A stretch of 64,000 nucleotides of DNA, taken from positions 62,001 through 126,000 of the forward strand of contig NZ_BJMK01000003.1 of assembly GCF_006539125.1 (NCBI RefSeq), given 5' to 3'. Below, piece by piece: positions 2,393 to 8,746 of the stretch. Source of the stretch: Gluconobacter sphaericus NBRC 12467 (GTDB lineage: Bacteria > Pseudomonadota > Alphaproteobacteria > Acetobacterales > Acetobacteraceae). How positions within the stretch are numbered: the first letter of the stretch is position 1; each line of letters starts with the position of its first letter. Under the pieces are notes generated by a model, which saw only the letters and a program-made list of their open reading frames with translations, did not search any database and was not told the origin of the DNA. The translations under genes and the position numbers were made by a program.

Positions 2393-2439
2393 TGGTGCTG
2401 CTGGACAGGATTGAACTGTCGACCTCTCCCTTACCAAGG
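2393..2439. repeat. attL, 47-bp copy of tRNA-Thr 3' end
   Basis: These 47 bases are identical to 8700-8746. They contain the T-arm, acceptor 3' strand and CCA of tRNA-Thr on the minus strand, up to the anticodon-stem region. Identity stops at 2392/8699 on the left and 2440/8747 on the right. The 5' half of a tRNA does not follow, so this is the displaced attachment-site copy. Confidence 0.93.
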
Positions 2440-2497
2440 AATTTATGCAGCCAAAAATCCGTGTAAAAACAGAAACATAAAATCTCAACAGGCCAAA

Positions 2498-2547
2498 TAT
2501 GCTAGGACTATGCTAGAATTTCAAGTCCTAGAATCGTTATGTGCTAG
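2498..2547. repeat. Candidate arm-type integrase sites, left end
   Basis: TATGCTAG occurs at 2498-2505 and again at 2509-2516, an 11-bp period of about one helical turn, with a variant TGTGCTAG at 2540-2547. Related 8-mers with the same 11-bp phasing lie near the right end. That fits integrase arm sites or excisionase sites. The assignment is inferred from position and phasing. Confidence 0.4.
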
Positions 2548-2658
2548 ACACCCCCTTGTGGGGTCAAAGCTTTTGATCTTCAGGCGCAAACGCACACCCT
2601 AGTCATTTTTTTCTGTTAGCTGGATTTGATATAACTTTTTTCTCAGGAGAAGGTGTAG

Positions 2659-3006
2659 ATGGCTGAGAAACTAAAGCTAACCCCTGTGGATGTATCCTAT
2701 CTCTTAGAATCTGAGGAAGAGCGGCAATCCCTTATGCAGGACGCACTGGCGTCAGGTGATCAGGCGATTATCGCTCGTGCTCAGATGATGATTGATGAAG
2801 CCATGGCAAAACAGATGGACGATGACAGTGGGCTTGTTTGCTTCGTTTCTGATGAGGAGAAGCAGGTTGTCATGGACGTATGTGAGAAAGCGGGTGTGAC
2901 ACTCTCAGAAGCCGTTGAGATGCTTCTTCAATATATTGTCGAGCATAAGGCTATTCTGCCGTTTTTGCTGGAAGCACAAAAACAGAAGTCAGCTGGTCAG
3001 CGTTAA
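2659..3006 (+). CDS. RelB/DinJ-like small DNA-binding protein
   Basis: This 115-residue protein starts at an ATG preceded by AGGAGAAGGTG. Residues 62-100 (VSDEEKQVVMDVCEKAGVTL, SEAVEMLLQYIV, ending ILPF) resemble the ribbon-helix-helix of RelB/DinJ antitoxins, including the typical Leu-Pro-Phe end. Residues 10-45 (VSYLLESEEERQSLMQDALA, SGDQAIIARAQMMIDEAMA) resemble the helical region of HigA-type addiction antidotes. No toxin gene is adjacent, so a regulatory role is as likely as an antitoxin role. It is followed after 3 bp by a hairpin and the 58-bp repeat containing a palindrome, a plausible binding site. No biochemical function can be assigned with confidence. Confidence 0.6.
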   Translation: MAEKLKLTPVDVSYLLESEEERQSLMQDALASGDQAIIARAQMMIDEAMAKQMDDDSGLVCFVSDEEKQVVMDVCEKAGVTLSEAVEMLLQYIVEHKAILPFLLEAQKQKSAGQR

Positions 3007-3009
3007 GAG

Positions 3010-6079: not shown

Positions 6080-6637
6080 ATGATTTTCGGATACGCACGC
6101 ACTTCCACACATGACCAACAGAACGGGCTTCACGCGCAGATTGACGAACTGACAGGGCAGGGATGTGAGCGCGTGTATTCTGAACAGGTGTCAGGCACAC
6201 AGAGAGACAGACCTGAACTCACCAAACTTCTGGATAACCTCAGACAAGGCGACGTTCTGTATGTCACCAAGCCAGACAGACTCGCCAGAAACACACAACA
6301 CCTGCTGGAAATCATCGAACTGCTCGAACAGAAAGGATGCTCACTTGTCATCCTGTCTATGGGTGGTGCTCAGTTAGACACACGCAACGCGACTTCGAAG
6401 CTGATGCTGACCATGCTTGGCGCAATCGCTGAGTTTGAACGCGCACTTATGAAAGAAAGACAGCAAGAAGGAATTGCCAAGGCAAAGGAACAAGGCAAAT
6501 ATCGTGGAAGAAAGCCAACAGCTATGGCTCAATCACAGGACATTCAAAAGATGAAATCTGAGGGTGTTTCTGTCACTGACATAGCTAAGAAGCTGAATAT
6601 CTCCCGCATGTCAGTCTATAGGGCCTTAAATGATTGA
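6080..6637 (+). CDS. Serine resolvase/invertase
   Basis: This 185-residue small serine recombinase has the catalytic serine at position 9 in GYARTSTHDQ. The conserved SGTQRDRPEL, DVLYVTKPDRLAR and AEFERALMKER blocks follow, and a C-terminal Hin-type helix-turn-helix (VSVTDIAKKLNISRMSVYRAL) covers about residues 155-183. Its length is normal for resolvases. No strong ribosome-binding site precedes the ATG. It overlaps the next gene by 8 bp. It may resolve multimers of the excised element or control copy topology, and the res-like array in front supports resolution rather than inversion. Confidence 0.9.
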   Translation: MIFGYARTSTHDQQNGLHAQIDELTGQGCERVYSEQVSGTQRDRPELTKLLDNLRQGDVLYVTKPDRLARNTQHLLEIIELLEQKGCSLVILSMGGAQLDTRNATSKLMLTMLGAIAEFERALMKERQQEGIAKAKEQGKYRGRKPTAMAQSQDIQKMKSEGVSVTDIAKKLNISRMSVYRALND

Positions 6638-7346
6638 AAAAATTAAAAAAACCATAAGGGATTACCCAATATGGTGTTGTCTTTTCTCTGTCGCATTAGG
6701 GTTCGTAACTTACGGAATAGATGTGTTTTTAAGTGGATGTAGTCAAGATGTTATCTTGAAAGCCGTACCTACTGCCATATTGGGGGCGATTACAGCATAC
6801 ATTGCTTATCAGCAGCACATAATTTCGAAGTCTCAGAAAGAAATTGCCGAAGATAAGCATCGATTAGAACTATTTGAGAAGAGGTTTGAAACCTATGAAG
6901 TCTTTTTAAACATTGCCCTCTGGTCTTCTGAGAGGAAAAGTTACAAACACAAAAGTTGTGGGGATTTTGAACTTATTGACCAAGAAAAATGGAAAGAGTC
7001 TGAGAAATATGAAGAAGAATTCTATGAGAACCGTCGAAAGTTAATTTCACTCGGAGAGCAGTCACGTTTTCTCTTTGGGGATGATGTGTGTAGCGTCCTT
7101 GACAAAACTAGAAAAATTATTTTCAATATAGAGAAGAATATTAAAATTATCAGACAAAAAAGAACCCGCCTTCCAGAGGTCGAAACTATTTTCGCTGATA
7201 TGGCTAGAGATTCTTCTTCTGAATTTAAGCCTTTTGAGGACCTTATTCGTAAAGATCAATTATACTTAACGGAGTTTTATCAAAAAAAGCTTCCAGAAAT
7301 AATGGGGCCTTATCTCAAGACGACCCCATATATCTCTAAGGACTAA
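6630..7346 (+). CDS. Two-helix membrane protein of unknown function
   Basis: This 238-residue protein has two predicted membrane helices, about 14-34 (IWCCLFSVALGFVTYGIDVF) and 44-62 (AVPTAILGAITAYIAY). A long charged cytoplasmic region follows, with helical segments such as LELFEKRFETYEVFLNIAL. The LFEKRFETYE-type block is common in uncharacterised membrane proteins of accessory regions. The start codon lies inside the resolvase gene (8-bp overlap), so translation is probably coupled. The stop codon shares the bases CTAA with the convergent integrase stop. Its position as the only non-replication cargo makes it a candidate defence or superinfection-control protein, but nothing in the sequence proves this. 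Confidence 0.75.
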   Translation: MIEKIKKTIRDYPIWCCLFSVALGFVTYGIDVFLSGCSQDVILKAVPTAILGAITAYIAYQQHIISKSQKEIAEDKHRLELFEKRFETYEVFLNIALWSSERKSYKHKSCGDFELIDQEKWKESEKYEEEFYENRRKLISLGEQSRFLFGDDVCSVLDKTRKIIFNIEKNIKIIRQKRTRLPEVETIFADMARDSSSEFKPFEDLIRKDQLYLTEFYQKKLPEIMGPYLKTTPYISKD

Positions 7347-8605
7347 CTCCGTTTAGGGCGTAACATGTCCTTGTATTTCTCATTTGTGTTGTGGTCGTAG
7401 TGTGCTTCTAACATTTGCACACTCGTCCCTGTGTTCCTTGCCAAGATGTACGCATCAACGCCATTCTTAAGCTGCTCAGTTATATAGAAGTGCCTCAAGC
7501 TGTAAGGCGTTCGTTTAACCCCACGATAATCTCTCACAAGGTCACATGCTTCCAGTGCGCGTGTGAACTGTCCTGAGAAGGATTTGAATGGGGTTTTGTC
7601 TTGATGAAGGAACAGCGGATCGTTCCTGTCAGGCGAGAAGGAAGCGAGTTCCTGATAAGTTCGATACAACCAAACGATAGCGTCTTTAACTTCTCTGTGC
7701 GGGATCAGTTCGCGTGATTTCGCTTTCCCATACACTCTCAGATGTACGTCGTGTGCGTATGGCCTTCCCTTGTCATTAAACTTCAATCCCAGAACGTCAC
7801 CCCACTTCATGTTTTTCACTTCTGTGGGTCTCATGCCTGTCATGGCGATGGTCTGGATGTAGCAACTGAACAGAATACGATCGTACTTCACGGCAGGATT
7901 CAGATTGTCCTCTGTGAATTGTGCGAAGGCGTACTCCCTAAGGCGTTTGTATTCCTCACATGAGAAGCCAGGACGCGCTGTGTAGCCCACCTTGGCAGTT
8001 CGGATTTCAGGGATTGATTTGATGTACTGCGAATCGAAGCAGAACTGAAAGAACCCATTCAAAGCAGCACGTTCACGATTCAACGTCGCGGGAGTAGGGC
8101 GCACTCGCTTCTTTTGGGTGATTGGGGAAGTGATGGTTTTCCCATTTCGTTCGTATGTGATGAACTGAATGTCTTTGCCTGGTCCTGAAATCCAGTAGTC
8201 AGAACGCCATGAGAGATAGGCATCCACGGACTTACTAGAAATAAAGTTAGGATTGTGTTCGCCAAAGAACCCATCGACATACCGTGTGAGAATGGCTGTG
8301 TTCTGAACTGCTACATTTTTAGGCAAACGGGCTTGAGCAACACGCGCTTCCATATGAGCAATGTAATCTTGGATGATGCGTGAGATGGATTTCGCACGGA
8401 CGTTCAAACCGCTCTCAGCTTTCAGAAGCGATTCATAATAGAATCTCTGAGCAAGCTTTTCCGCTTCGTGACGGTCTCTCGTTCCTAGCGATTTTCGGAT
8501 TTGTCCCTGACCGGGAATTGAGAACCGAACAGACCAGTTAGCAGAGCCGGTCTGTTTGAACACATTATATGGTGCGGAAACTACGCTAGAACTATGCTTA
8601 TCCAC
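7343..8605 (-). CDS. int: Tyrosine recombinase (phage-type integrase)
   Basis: This protein of about 420 residues shows the tyrosine recombinase layout. An N-terminal arm-binding-like region (NWSVRFSIPGQGQIRKSLGT) is followed by a core-binding helical domain. The catalytic domain has the first arginine in TGMRPTEVKNMKW, lysine in YGKAKSREL, the second arginine in YSLRHFYITE and the nucleophile tyrosine in LEAHYDH. The GTG at 8605 is chosen because AAGG lies 9 nt upstream; a TTG at 8611 is possible. It lies next to the tRNA-Thr end and reads away from it, as expected for the enzyme that inserted the element. The TATGCTAG-like sites overlap its start. Confidence 0.93.
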   Translation of the reverse strand: MDKHSSSVVSAPYNVFKQTGSANWSVRFSIPGQGQIRKSLGTRDRHEAEKLAQRFYYESLLKAESGLNVRAKSISRIIQDYIAHMEARVAQARLPKNVAVQNTAILTRYVDGFFGEHNPNFISSKSVDAYLSWRSDYWISGPGKDIQFITYERNGKTITSPITQKKRVRPTPATLNRERAALNGFFQFCFDSQYIKSIPEIRTAKVGYTARPGFSCEEYKRLREYAFAQFTEDNLNPAVKYDRILFSCYIQTIAMTGMRPTEVKNMKWGDVLGLKFNDKGRPYAHDVHLRVYGKAKSRELIPHREVKDAIVWLYRTYQELASFSPDRNDPLFLHQDKTPFKSFSGQFTRALEACDLVRDYRGVKRTPYSLRHFYITEQLKNGVDAYILARNTGTSVQMLEAHYDHNTNEKYKDMLRPKRS

Positions 8606-8638
8606 GCGCAAAAGCCTTGTTTTCTGCCCCTATGCTAA
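8582..8638. repeat. Candidate arm-type integrase sites, right end
   Basis: TACGCTAG at 8582-8589 and TATGCTTA at 8593-8600 are 11 bp apart, matching the phasing of the TATGCTAG pair at 2498 and 2509. TATGCTAA follows at 8631-8638. They overlap the integrase start region, so integrase binding could also repress its own gene. Confidence 0.35.
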
Positions 8639-8699
8639 CACTAAGTTAGGGGTAAATGAGACAAGCTGAAATCTTAAGTCTCTGAAAAACAAGGAAAAA

Positions 8700-8746
8700 T
8701 GGTGCTGCTGGACAGGATTGAACTGTCGACCTCTCCCTTACCAAGG
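8700..8746. repeat. attR, 47-bp core within tRNA-Thr
   Basis: Right copy of the 47-bp repeat. It forms the 3' part of the intact tRNA-Thr, so the element restores the tRNA on insertion. The crossover lies somewhere within this identity block. Confidence 0.93.

Follow-up and report, generated by a model that had tools for sequence, protein, structure and literature searches.

The 64,000-nt window analysed here (positions 62,001-126,000, forward strand, of contig NZ_BJMK01000003.1 from Gluconobacter sphaericus NBRC 12467) contains a 6.3-kb element at 2393-8746, inserted at a tRNA-Thr gene. With a probability of roughly two in three, this element is an integrative, plasmid-like mobile replicon in which two copies of a 58-bp direct repeat, here called R, serve as origin-like sites on either side of a fused helicase-primase gene. 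This reading is based on the integrase, resolvase and res-like site common to all six related elements, the existence of two exchangeable replication modules, empty sites in relatives, the occurrence of R in 4/4 elements with the fused gene versus 0/16 other relatives of that gene, a terminator-type leader in the same four elements, and small plasmids that match the resolvase. R, the res-like site, the attenuator-like leader and the module exchange had not been mentioned in the original prediction, which was made for the same DNA.

Boundaries of the element and unoccupied sites

The element was bounded by direct repeats at 2393-2439 (attL) and 8700-8746 (attR) that were identical over 47/47 bp; when the element was resampled 100 times with a Markov model, the longest exact direct repeat never exceeded 16 bp. 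ARAGORN identified an intact tRNA-Thr(GGT) gene at 8700-8774 on the minus strand, also matched by the Rfam tRNA model (3.5e-15). The right repeat corresponds to the 3' 47 nt of this gene, and the left repeat, at the chromosome-distal end, is a second copy of them. The GC content was 41.7% in the element versus 60.3% in the remaining window, and among 6.26-kb stretches of the window, those richest in AT begin less than 300 bp from the element start. With tRNA 3'-end repeats at both ends and an intact tRNA, this is a tRNA-targeting tyrosine-integrase element. The perfect repeats, the position of the right one within tRNA-Thr, the adjacent integrase and the AT-rich cargo had all been described in the original prediction, and each was borne out.

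At the left end, homology to the element of Gluconobacter kanchanaburiensis NBRC 103587 (G157) starts exactly at window position 2393. The 1 kb of chromosome preceding it (1394-2392) was unlike the gcrA-tRNA spacer of six relatives, except for ~25 bp after gcrA. This flank being altered, the left end is placed by the G. kanchanaburiensis homology rather than by a clean comparison with an empty site. Between gcrA and the left end, a transposase remnant was observed at 1394-2150 (DDE_Tnp_1_2, 8.4e-6, below the Pfam cut-off). At the other end, beside the tRNA, the innermost part of the element (8677-8699) is a host-like flank, AAGTCTCTGAAAA..., which by eye resembles what natively follows the tRNA in empty relatives, as if it had been captured from an earlier host site.

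All 26 genomes of the genus sample hold the tRNA-Thr/dksA locus. In ten of them gcrA lies within ~0.6 kb of tRNA-Thr, a gap too short for an element, and the site was scored as unoccupied. The gap was 1.7 kb in G152. G000 and G157 carry an element of the window integrase type, G169 has an integrase remnant with stops, and G166 has another integrase together with a second attachment site (att) copy on a different contig. For the remaining 11 genomes, gcrA was not found in the fetched stretch and they were counted neither as occupied nor as empty. The expectation that the repeat would define empty sites in relatives thus held for the genus, where independently occupied sites also exist, although not for the window's own, altered left flank.

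Related elements and exchange of modules

Including that of the window, six related elements were found, the others being G157 (L041), G073 (L007 and L120; Novacetimonas cocois WE7), G321 (L074), G300 (L105) and L126. The first five, from three genera, lie between tRNA-Thr and its 3'-end copy, beside dksA. L126 is terminal on a 62-kb IMG/VR provirus contig, which includes the integrase-distal att copy but breaks off on the tRNA side. The original prediction would have failed if the same genes had lacked flanking repeats in all relatives; instead, of the five other elements with this set of integrase, resolvase and replication genes, four are bracketed by the tRNA repeat and the fifth has it at its visible end. 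Within ~1.1 kb of the L126 att copy there is a phage lysozyme gene (PF00959, 8e-31; L126:7190-10272), and the element and a prophage may lie side by side at one tRNA. G189, with an integrase, a primase and a resolvase within ~20 kb of tRNA-Thr(CGT), was considered as a further element and rejected, no second att copy being found in the fetched stretch.

An integrase, a resolvase and a res-like site were common to 6/6 elements. The replication module was of two kinds, namely an SF2-AEP fusion in four elements (window, G073, G321 and L126) and an AEP plus an SF3-type protein in two (G157, with DUF5906, and G300). The window and G157 elements were 91-92% identical at 2393-2543, at 5948-6633 and from 7349 onward. 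No comparable match was found at 2544-5947, which holds the replication module (one 49-bp stretch matched at 86%), or at 6634-7348, which holds a small-protein gene. This pattern indicates that the replication module and the small-protein gene were exchanged as units, and the comparison of L126 with G157 gave the same picture. A protein of 255/256 aa with no Pfam match was common to the fusion-type L126 (L126:6279-7046) and the SF3-type G157 (L041:6843-7613).

The replication protein

The gene at 3300-5765 (plus strand) encodes an 821-aa protein with an N-terminal SF2/DEAD-type ATPase and a C-terminal AEP-type primase region, assigned from PHROG matches, relatives and motifs. The motifs are a Walker A at aa 9 and DETP at aa 122, and the AEP-type region spans approximately aa 575-690. 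The protein matched phrog_31024 (3.5e-120) and phrog_2467 (3.7e-43), both of unknown function, and more weakly DEAD-type Pfam models; no named primase family was matched by the protein itself in the Pfam, PHROG and NCBIfam scans. Its relatives were matched by DEAD/ResIII in the N-terminal part and by DNA primase PHROGs (including phrog_9765) in the C-terminal part, and a profile built from six relatives matched SF2 helicases in the PDB at 6e-4. Judged by the homologues' DNA primase matches and by the motifs, the element is taken to contain an AEP primase.

Relatives of the protein were found in 14/397 genomes of the family sample and 5/385 of the class sample, the own genome being counted in both, and in 0/14 control genomes in either search. 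Others belong to two jumbo phages (three records), and those in L079, L083 and L084 stand, by eye, in prophage-like contexts. According to the accessible portion of PMC5862659, SF2-like helicases of T4-like phages are fused to AEPs, and one such group was compared with the herpesvirus UL9 origin-binding protein. By analogy, we infer that the 821-aa protein may have an origin-binding function.

Direct repeats around the primase gene

The two copies of R, at 3047-3104 and 5816-5873, are 100% identical and flank the primase gene. The same arrangement was found in 4/4 fusion-type elements, with repeats of 58-161 bp overall and 98-100% identity: 58/58 in the window, 58/59 in L126, 157/160 in G321 and 157/161 in G073 (runs of N left out of the compared bases). 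Start-to-start spacing was 2.68-2.77 kb. The longest exact internal repeat measured 55-78 bp in these elements, whereas 100 resampled versions of each reached no more than 18 bp. In the SF3-type elements it was 13 bp (G157) and 24 bp (G300), the latter being insertion-sequence ends; two inverted insertion-sequence copies (938 nt, 97%) are present in G300 at L105:11763-14176. Primase-flanking repeats were absent from 16/16 other relatives of the gene (12 and 4 in two tests), three of which had shortened flanks (L075, L078 and L140) and some of which were partial open reading frames (ORFs); G291, one of the 14 genomes of the family sample in which phrog_31024 was matched, was left out of the repeat test.

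By global alignment, R was 74% identical between the window and L126 and 77% between G321 and G073, with indels, and identity between these two pairs was at chance level. The primases of the window and L126 were 61% identical. The two copies within an element therefore resemble each other far more closely than either resembles its counterpart in another element, which points to concerted evolution or repeated re-duplication. In these alignments the signal of concerted evolution appears clear at two sites around the replication gene. Since the breakpoints of module exchange fall outside R, the repeats belong to the replication module, of which they would be origin-like cis sites. R also contains the inverted repeat TGTAAC-GAAAA-GTTACA, and the single-stranded G321 copies folded better than shuffles (z -2.6 and -5.5). 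Two other explanations were rejected: an insertion sequence or miniature inverted-repeat transposable element, as just two copies of R, both in its own element, were found in the 26 genus genomes; and a junction of module exchange, as the breakpoints lie elsewhere.

The primase leader

The leader at 3105-3299 (plus strand) contains a terminator-like hairpin (3230-3261) followed by a T-run, and the loop of the hairpin is complementary to 3154-3161. Such a hairpin with a T-run was present upstream of the primase start in 4/4 fusion-type elements, each time with a 7-8-nt upstream complement of the loop: TTTTGGC(A) in the window and L126, and GCTGGCCG in G073 and G321. The same complementarity was reached by 29, 104, 1 and 0 of 2000 shuffled leaders for the window, L126, G073 and G321, respectively; with the elements forming two related pairs and the complement first seen by eye, these amount to approximately two independent cases and provide a lead rather than proof. 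No known RNA family was found in the leader with Rfam, where the tRNA alone passed the gathering score. Together with the RHH protein encoded upstream, the leader resembles plasmid copy control by attenuation.

The resolvase and its res-like site

The resolvase gene (6080-6637, plus strand) encodes a small serine recombinase of 185 aa of the resolvase/invertase type (Pfam Resolvase 2.8e-45, HTH_7 1.3e-8). Upstream of it, as in 6/6 elements, lies a res-like site (5955-6072, plus strand) consisting of subsite I (5955-5982, 28 bp), subsite II (6005-6037, 33 bp) and subsite III ending at ~6071. Two forward words (consensus GTMACTTT) were found 50 bp apart in all six elements, one G300 copy being degenerate. 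Subsite I was 28 bp in 6/6, subsite II was 33 bp in 5/6 and 34 bp in one, and the end word of subsite III followed 34 bp further in 5/6 and was not found in L126. By its sequence, the site has the anatomy of a Tn3-type, three-subsite res adjacent to a resolvase gene. The Tn3/gamma-delta res has a 28-bp subsite I and a 22-bp spacer to subsite II. Both values are shared here, as is the small serine recombinase; however, no transposase accompanies it in the element, where its use is presumably multimer resolution. Among plasmid records, four matched the resolvase at 1e-50, three of 3.5-30 kb and the fourth of 1.8 Mb.

Other genes and features

Five ORFs, all intact, were taken as element genes. 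Besides the replication protein and the resolvase, they encode a DNA-binding protein, a candidate membrane protein and the integrase. The first of these (2659-3006, plus strand) is an RHH/RelB-like protein of 115 aa and a candidate replication or copy-number regulator, matching Pfam RelB (3.4e-8), more weakly RepB-RCR_reg (0.0059), and an NCBIfam replication regulatory protein (2.7e-4, below the cut-off). Its gene is followed by a terminator-like hairpin at 3010-3037 (plus strand), 96% repeated at 5772-5799 (plus strand), where a similar hairpin follows the primase gene; both were recognised by eye.

The 238-aa protein (6630-7346, plus strand), characterised by alignment and a structure model (pLDDT 60), is all-helical with an N-terminus that is hydrophobic by eye, which makes it a candidate membrane protein, and it occupies an exchangeable slot. 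An unrelated protein fills this slot in G157, where window positions 6634-7348 are replaced, and no relative was found in the G321 element. A defence role was considered and rejected, as PADLOC gave no match for the window, L126, G073 or G300 copies; the unrelated G157 protein had weak PADLOC matches to PycTM and PDC-S06 (both 0.0012). Distant relatives of the 238-aa protein were seen near integrases at other sites (L107:14372-15163, L113:6096-6914 and L123:14052-14738), and in L123 (Acetobacter conturbans) an AEP and an SF3 protein also lie beside the integrase.

The tyrosine integrase (422 aa, 7343-8611, minus strand) matched a PHROG integrase (6.4e-27) and fell just below the Pfam cut-off for PF00589 (4.9e-6; 26.9 versus 27.1 bits). 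It shares 91% identity with its G. kanchanaburiensis counterpart. The motif TRTGCTAG recurs at 2498, 2509 and 2540 (2498-2547); these copies are candidate integrase arm sites, seen without a chance control, and similar words occur at 8582 and 8631.

Ten further small or antisense ORFs had no Pfam match. Domain, PHROG, NCBIfam and PADLOC scans of the five proteins revealed no convincing structural, conjugation or restriction family, the weak matches being at chance level (ResIII 0.015, itself a helicase domain, PADLOC REase_II 0.0019, and a baseplate PHROG 0.043 on the resolvase). The original prediction of a tRNA-Thr element with integrase, resolvase, helicase-primase, RHH protein and membrane-like protein, and with no structural, conjugation or restriction genes, agrees with these results. 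No relaxase or conjugation gene characteristic of integrative and conjugative or mobilizable elements was detected in scans of the five proteins, which is still compatible with an oriT used in trans.

Proposed life cycle and alternative explanations

In the life cycle that we favour, the integrase would recombine the tRNA-Thr 3' end, as the anatomy of the repeats suggests, and the excised circle would be copied by its own SF2-helicase/AEP-primase protein with host polymerases, a role predicted from the domains. The R copies would act as origin-like cis sites, and the RHH protein and terminator-type leader may restrain primase expression as in plasmid copy control. The serine resolvase would resolve multimers at the res-like site, the anatomy of which is consistent with this. 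Since no transfer gene was recognised, travel between cells would need a helper phage or plasmid, or transformation.

Several observations weigh against this life cycle. The circular form is predicted from assembled sequence, and none of 72,556 plasmid records matched the window primase at 1e-5, that of G321 at 1e-3 or the SF3 protein of G157 at 1e-10. The AlphaFold2 model of the 821-aa protein was poor (pLDDT 47.8) and had no Foldseek match at 0.001 or lower; its best matches include SF2 helicases and AEP domains (the LigD polymerase domain and a cyanophage PrimPol), mixed with unrelated folds. The shorter R of the window and L126 folded no better than shuffled DNA (z -0.7 and -0.9), no iterons were recognised in them, and the loop complementarity of the leader had been spotted by eye ahead of testing. 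The G073 primase is interrupted by TAG and the G300 AEP gene is split by insertion sequences, so that some copies of the element may be dead. A plasmid origin by sequence was also considered for the whole element and rejected; the best 20 of 34 plasmid records matched through resolvase pieces and the tRNA end only.

The same genes could belong to a capsid-less phage satellite of the PICMI or P4 kind, induced and packaged by a helper phage, which is possible, if unlikely. The primase relatives in jumbo phages and prophage-like contexts, the provirus contig of L126 with its nearby lysozyme gene, and the similar plan of integrase, regulator and primase without capsid genes in PICMI, as described in the part of PMC10803314 available, would fit such a satellite. 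However, the resolvase and res-like site point to a plasmid state, none of 50,697 phage records matched the integrase at 1e-10, and no AlpA match was found in the five proteins (for the resolvase, among the best 25 of 37 PHROG matches) or in the ten further ORFs (Pfam). The host genome had no PF03354 terminase match, other terminase families not having been searched. That these elements are decayed prophages or island remnants with no present function is scarcely credible: they have few genes and some sister copies are interrupted, but all five window ORFs are intact, the att copies match perfectly, and independent elements repeat the same compact plan.

R itself may be read in other ways. In the window each copy follows a terminator-like hairpin and lies ~200 bp before a gene, and its inverted repeat is accompanied by an encoded RHH protein, as would be expected of a duplicated promoter/operator through which one regulator controls both the primase and the genes downstream. 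This appears doubtful, for in G321 a gap of ~600 bp separates the downstream R from the resolvase ORF and no relative of the RHH protein was found, and L126 has another gene in the RHH place. The high identity of R within elements, compared to that between sisters, requires recurrent recombination or re-duplication, and R could be a recombination site at which the 2.7-kb segment of primase and R excises or re-inserts as a separate circle, so that the element would be a genome in two parts. We consider this improbable: no version with one R or without the primase was found, R was confined to its own genome among the 26 of the genus, the exchange breakpoints lie outside it, and ordinary gene conversion could likewise account for the identity. 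More novel, and likewise improbable, is a family of very small integrative replicons whose primase gene travels between two homogenised origin or recombination sites, the excised circle being able to split in two, with the primase on 2.7 kb and the integrase and resolvase on 3.6 kb, as a bacterial two-part mobile genome.

Relation to known elements

Satellite P4 replicates through a helicase-primase (alpha protein) and two separated cis sites, ori1 and crr. A helicase-primase replicon with two cis sites is thus shared with the plasmid-like element proposed here; in the window, however, the gene lies between the two sites, which differ hardly at all in sequence. Neither capsid nor regulatory genes of P4 were recognised, and Pfam and PHROG scans of the five proteins revealed no capsid-modifying or late-gene activator genes.

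Cryptic integrated elements with PrimPol-PV1/AEP primases constitute class iii of Kazlauskas et al. 2018 (PMC5862659). In the portion of that paper available, they share with the window element tRNA integration with direct repeats, an AEP primase and no conjugation or phage genes. By its predicted genes, the window element would belong to this class, with an AEP primase and no recognised conjugation or phage structural genes. However, the SF2-like domain is described in that paper as C-terminal and is N-terminal in the window protein, and neither primase-flanking repeats nor an attenuator-type leader, both present in the window element, are mentioned in that portion. A helicase domain ahead of an AEP domain is also described, in the accessible text of PMC12205980, for the GP55 replicase of lactococcal phage 1706, so this order is not unique to the window protein; GP55 is a 1317-aa phage protein with an SF3 helicase and a PolB domain, whereas the window protein has SF2.

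PICMI, as presented in the accessible part of PMC10803314, are likewise small, with integrase, regulator and primase and no capsid genes, and their primase is of the DUF5906 type, also found in the G157 sister element. They differ in having AlpA, a demonstrated helper phage and a prototype at fis, compared to an RHH protein, tRNA-Thr, a resolvase with a res-like site and no known helper in the window element. The same part of that paper treats fis integration as optional in one search model and mandatory in the other. For the window element, no AlpA match was found and the site is tRNA-Thr, not fis.

A mostly open-access literature search returned, among the matches listed, no paper describing this element family or its primase-flanking repeats. 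The original prediction had suggested a previously undescribed family. Cryptic integrated AEP elements are a kind already described (PMC5862659), as are tiny satellites with integrase and primase (PMC10803314); this particular family and its repeats were not found among the papers listed. The suggestion thus holds only in part.

The element is thus read as a naturally occurring replicon of very small size that encodes an SF2-helicase/AEP-primase fusion, in a family whose common frame takes either of two exchangeable replication modules. Its hosts, the acetic acid bacteria, are harmless and are used industrially for vinegar and ketogluconate. The family makes testable how replication starts in AEP-based mobile elements and where the lower limit of reduction of an integrating element lies.

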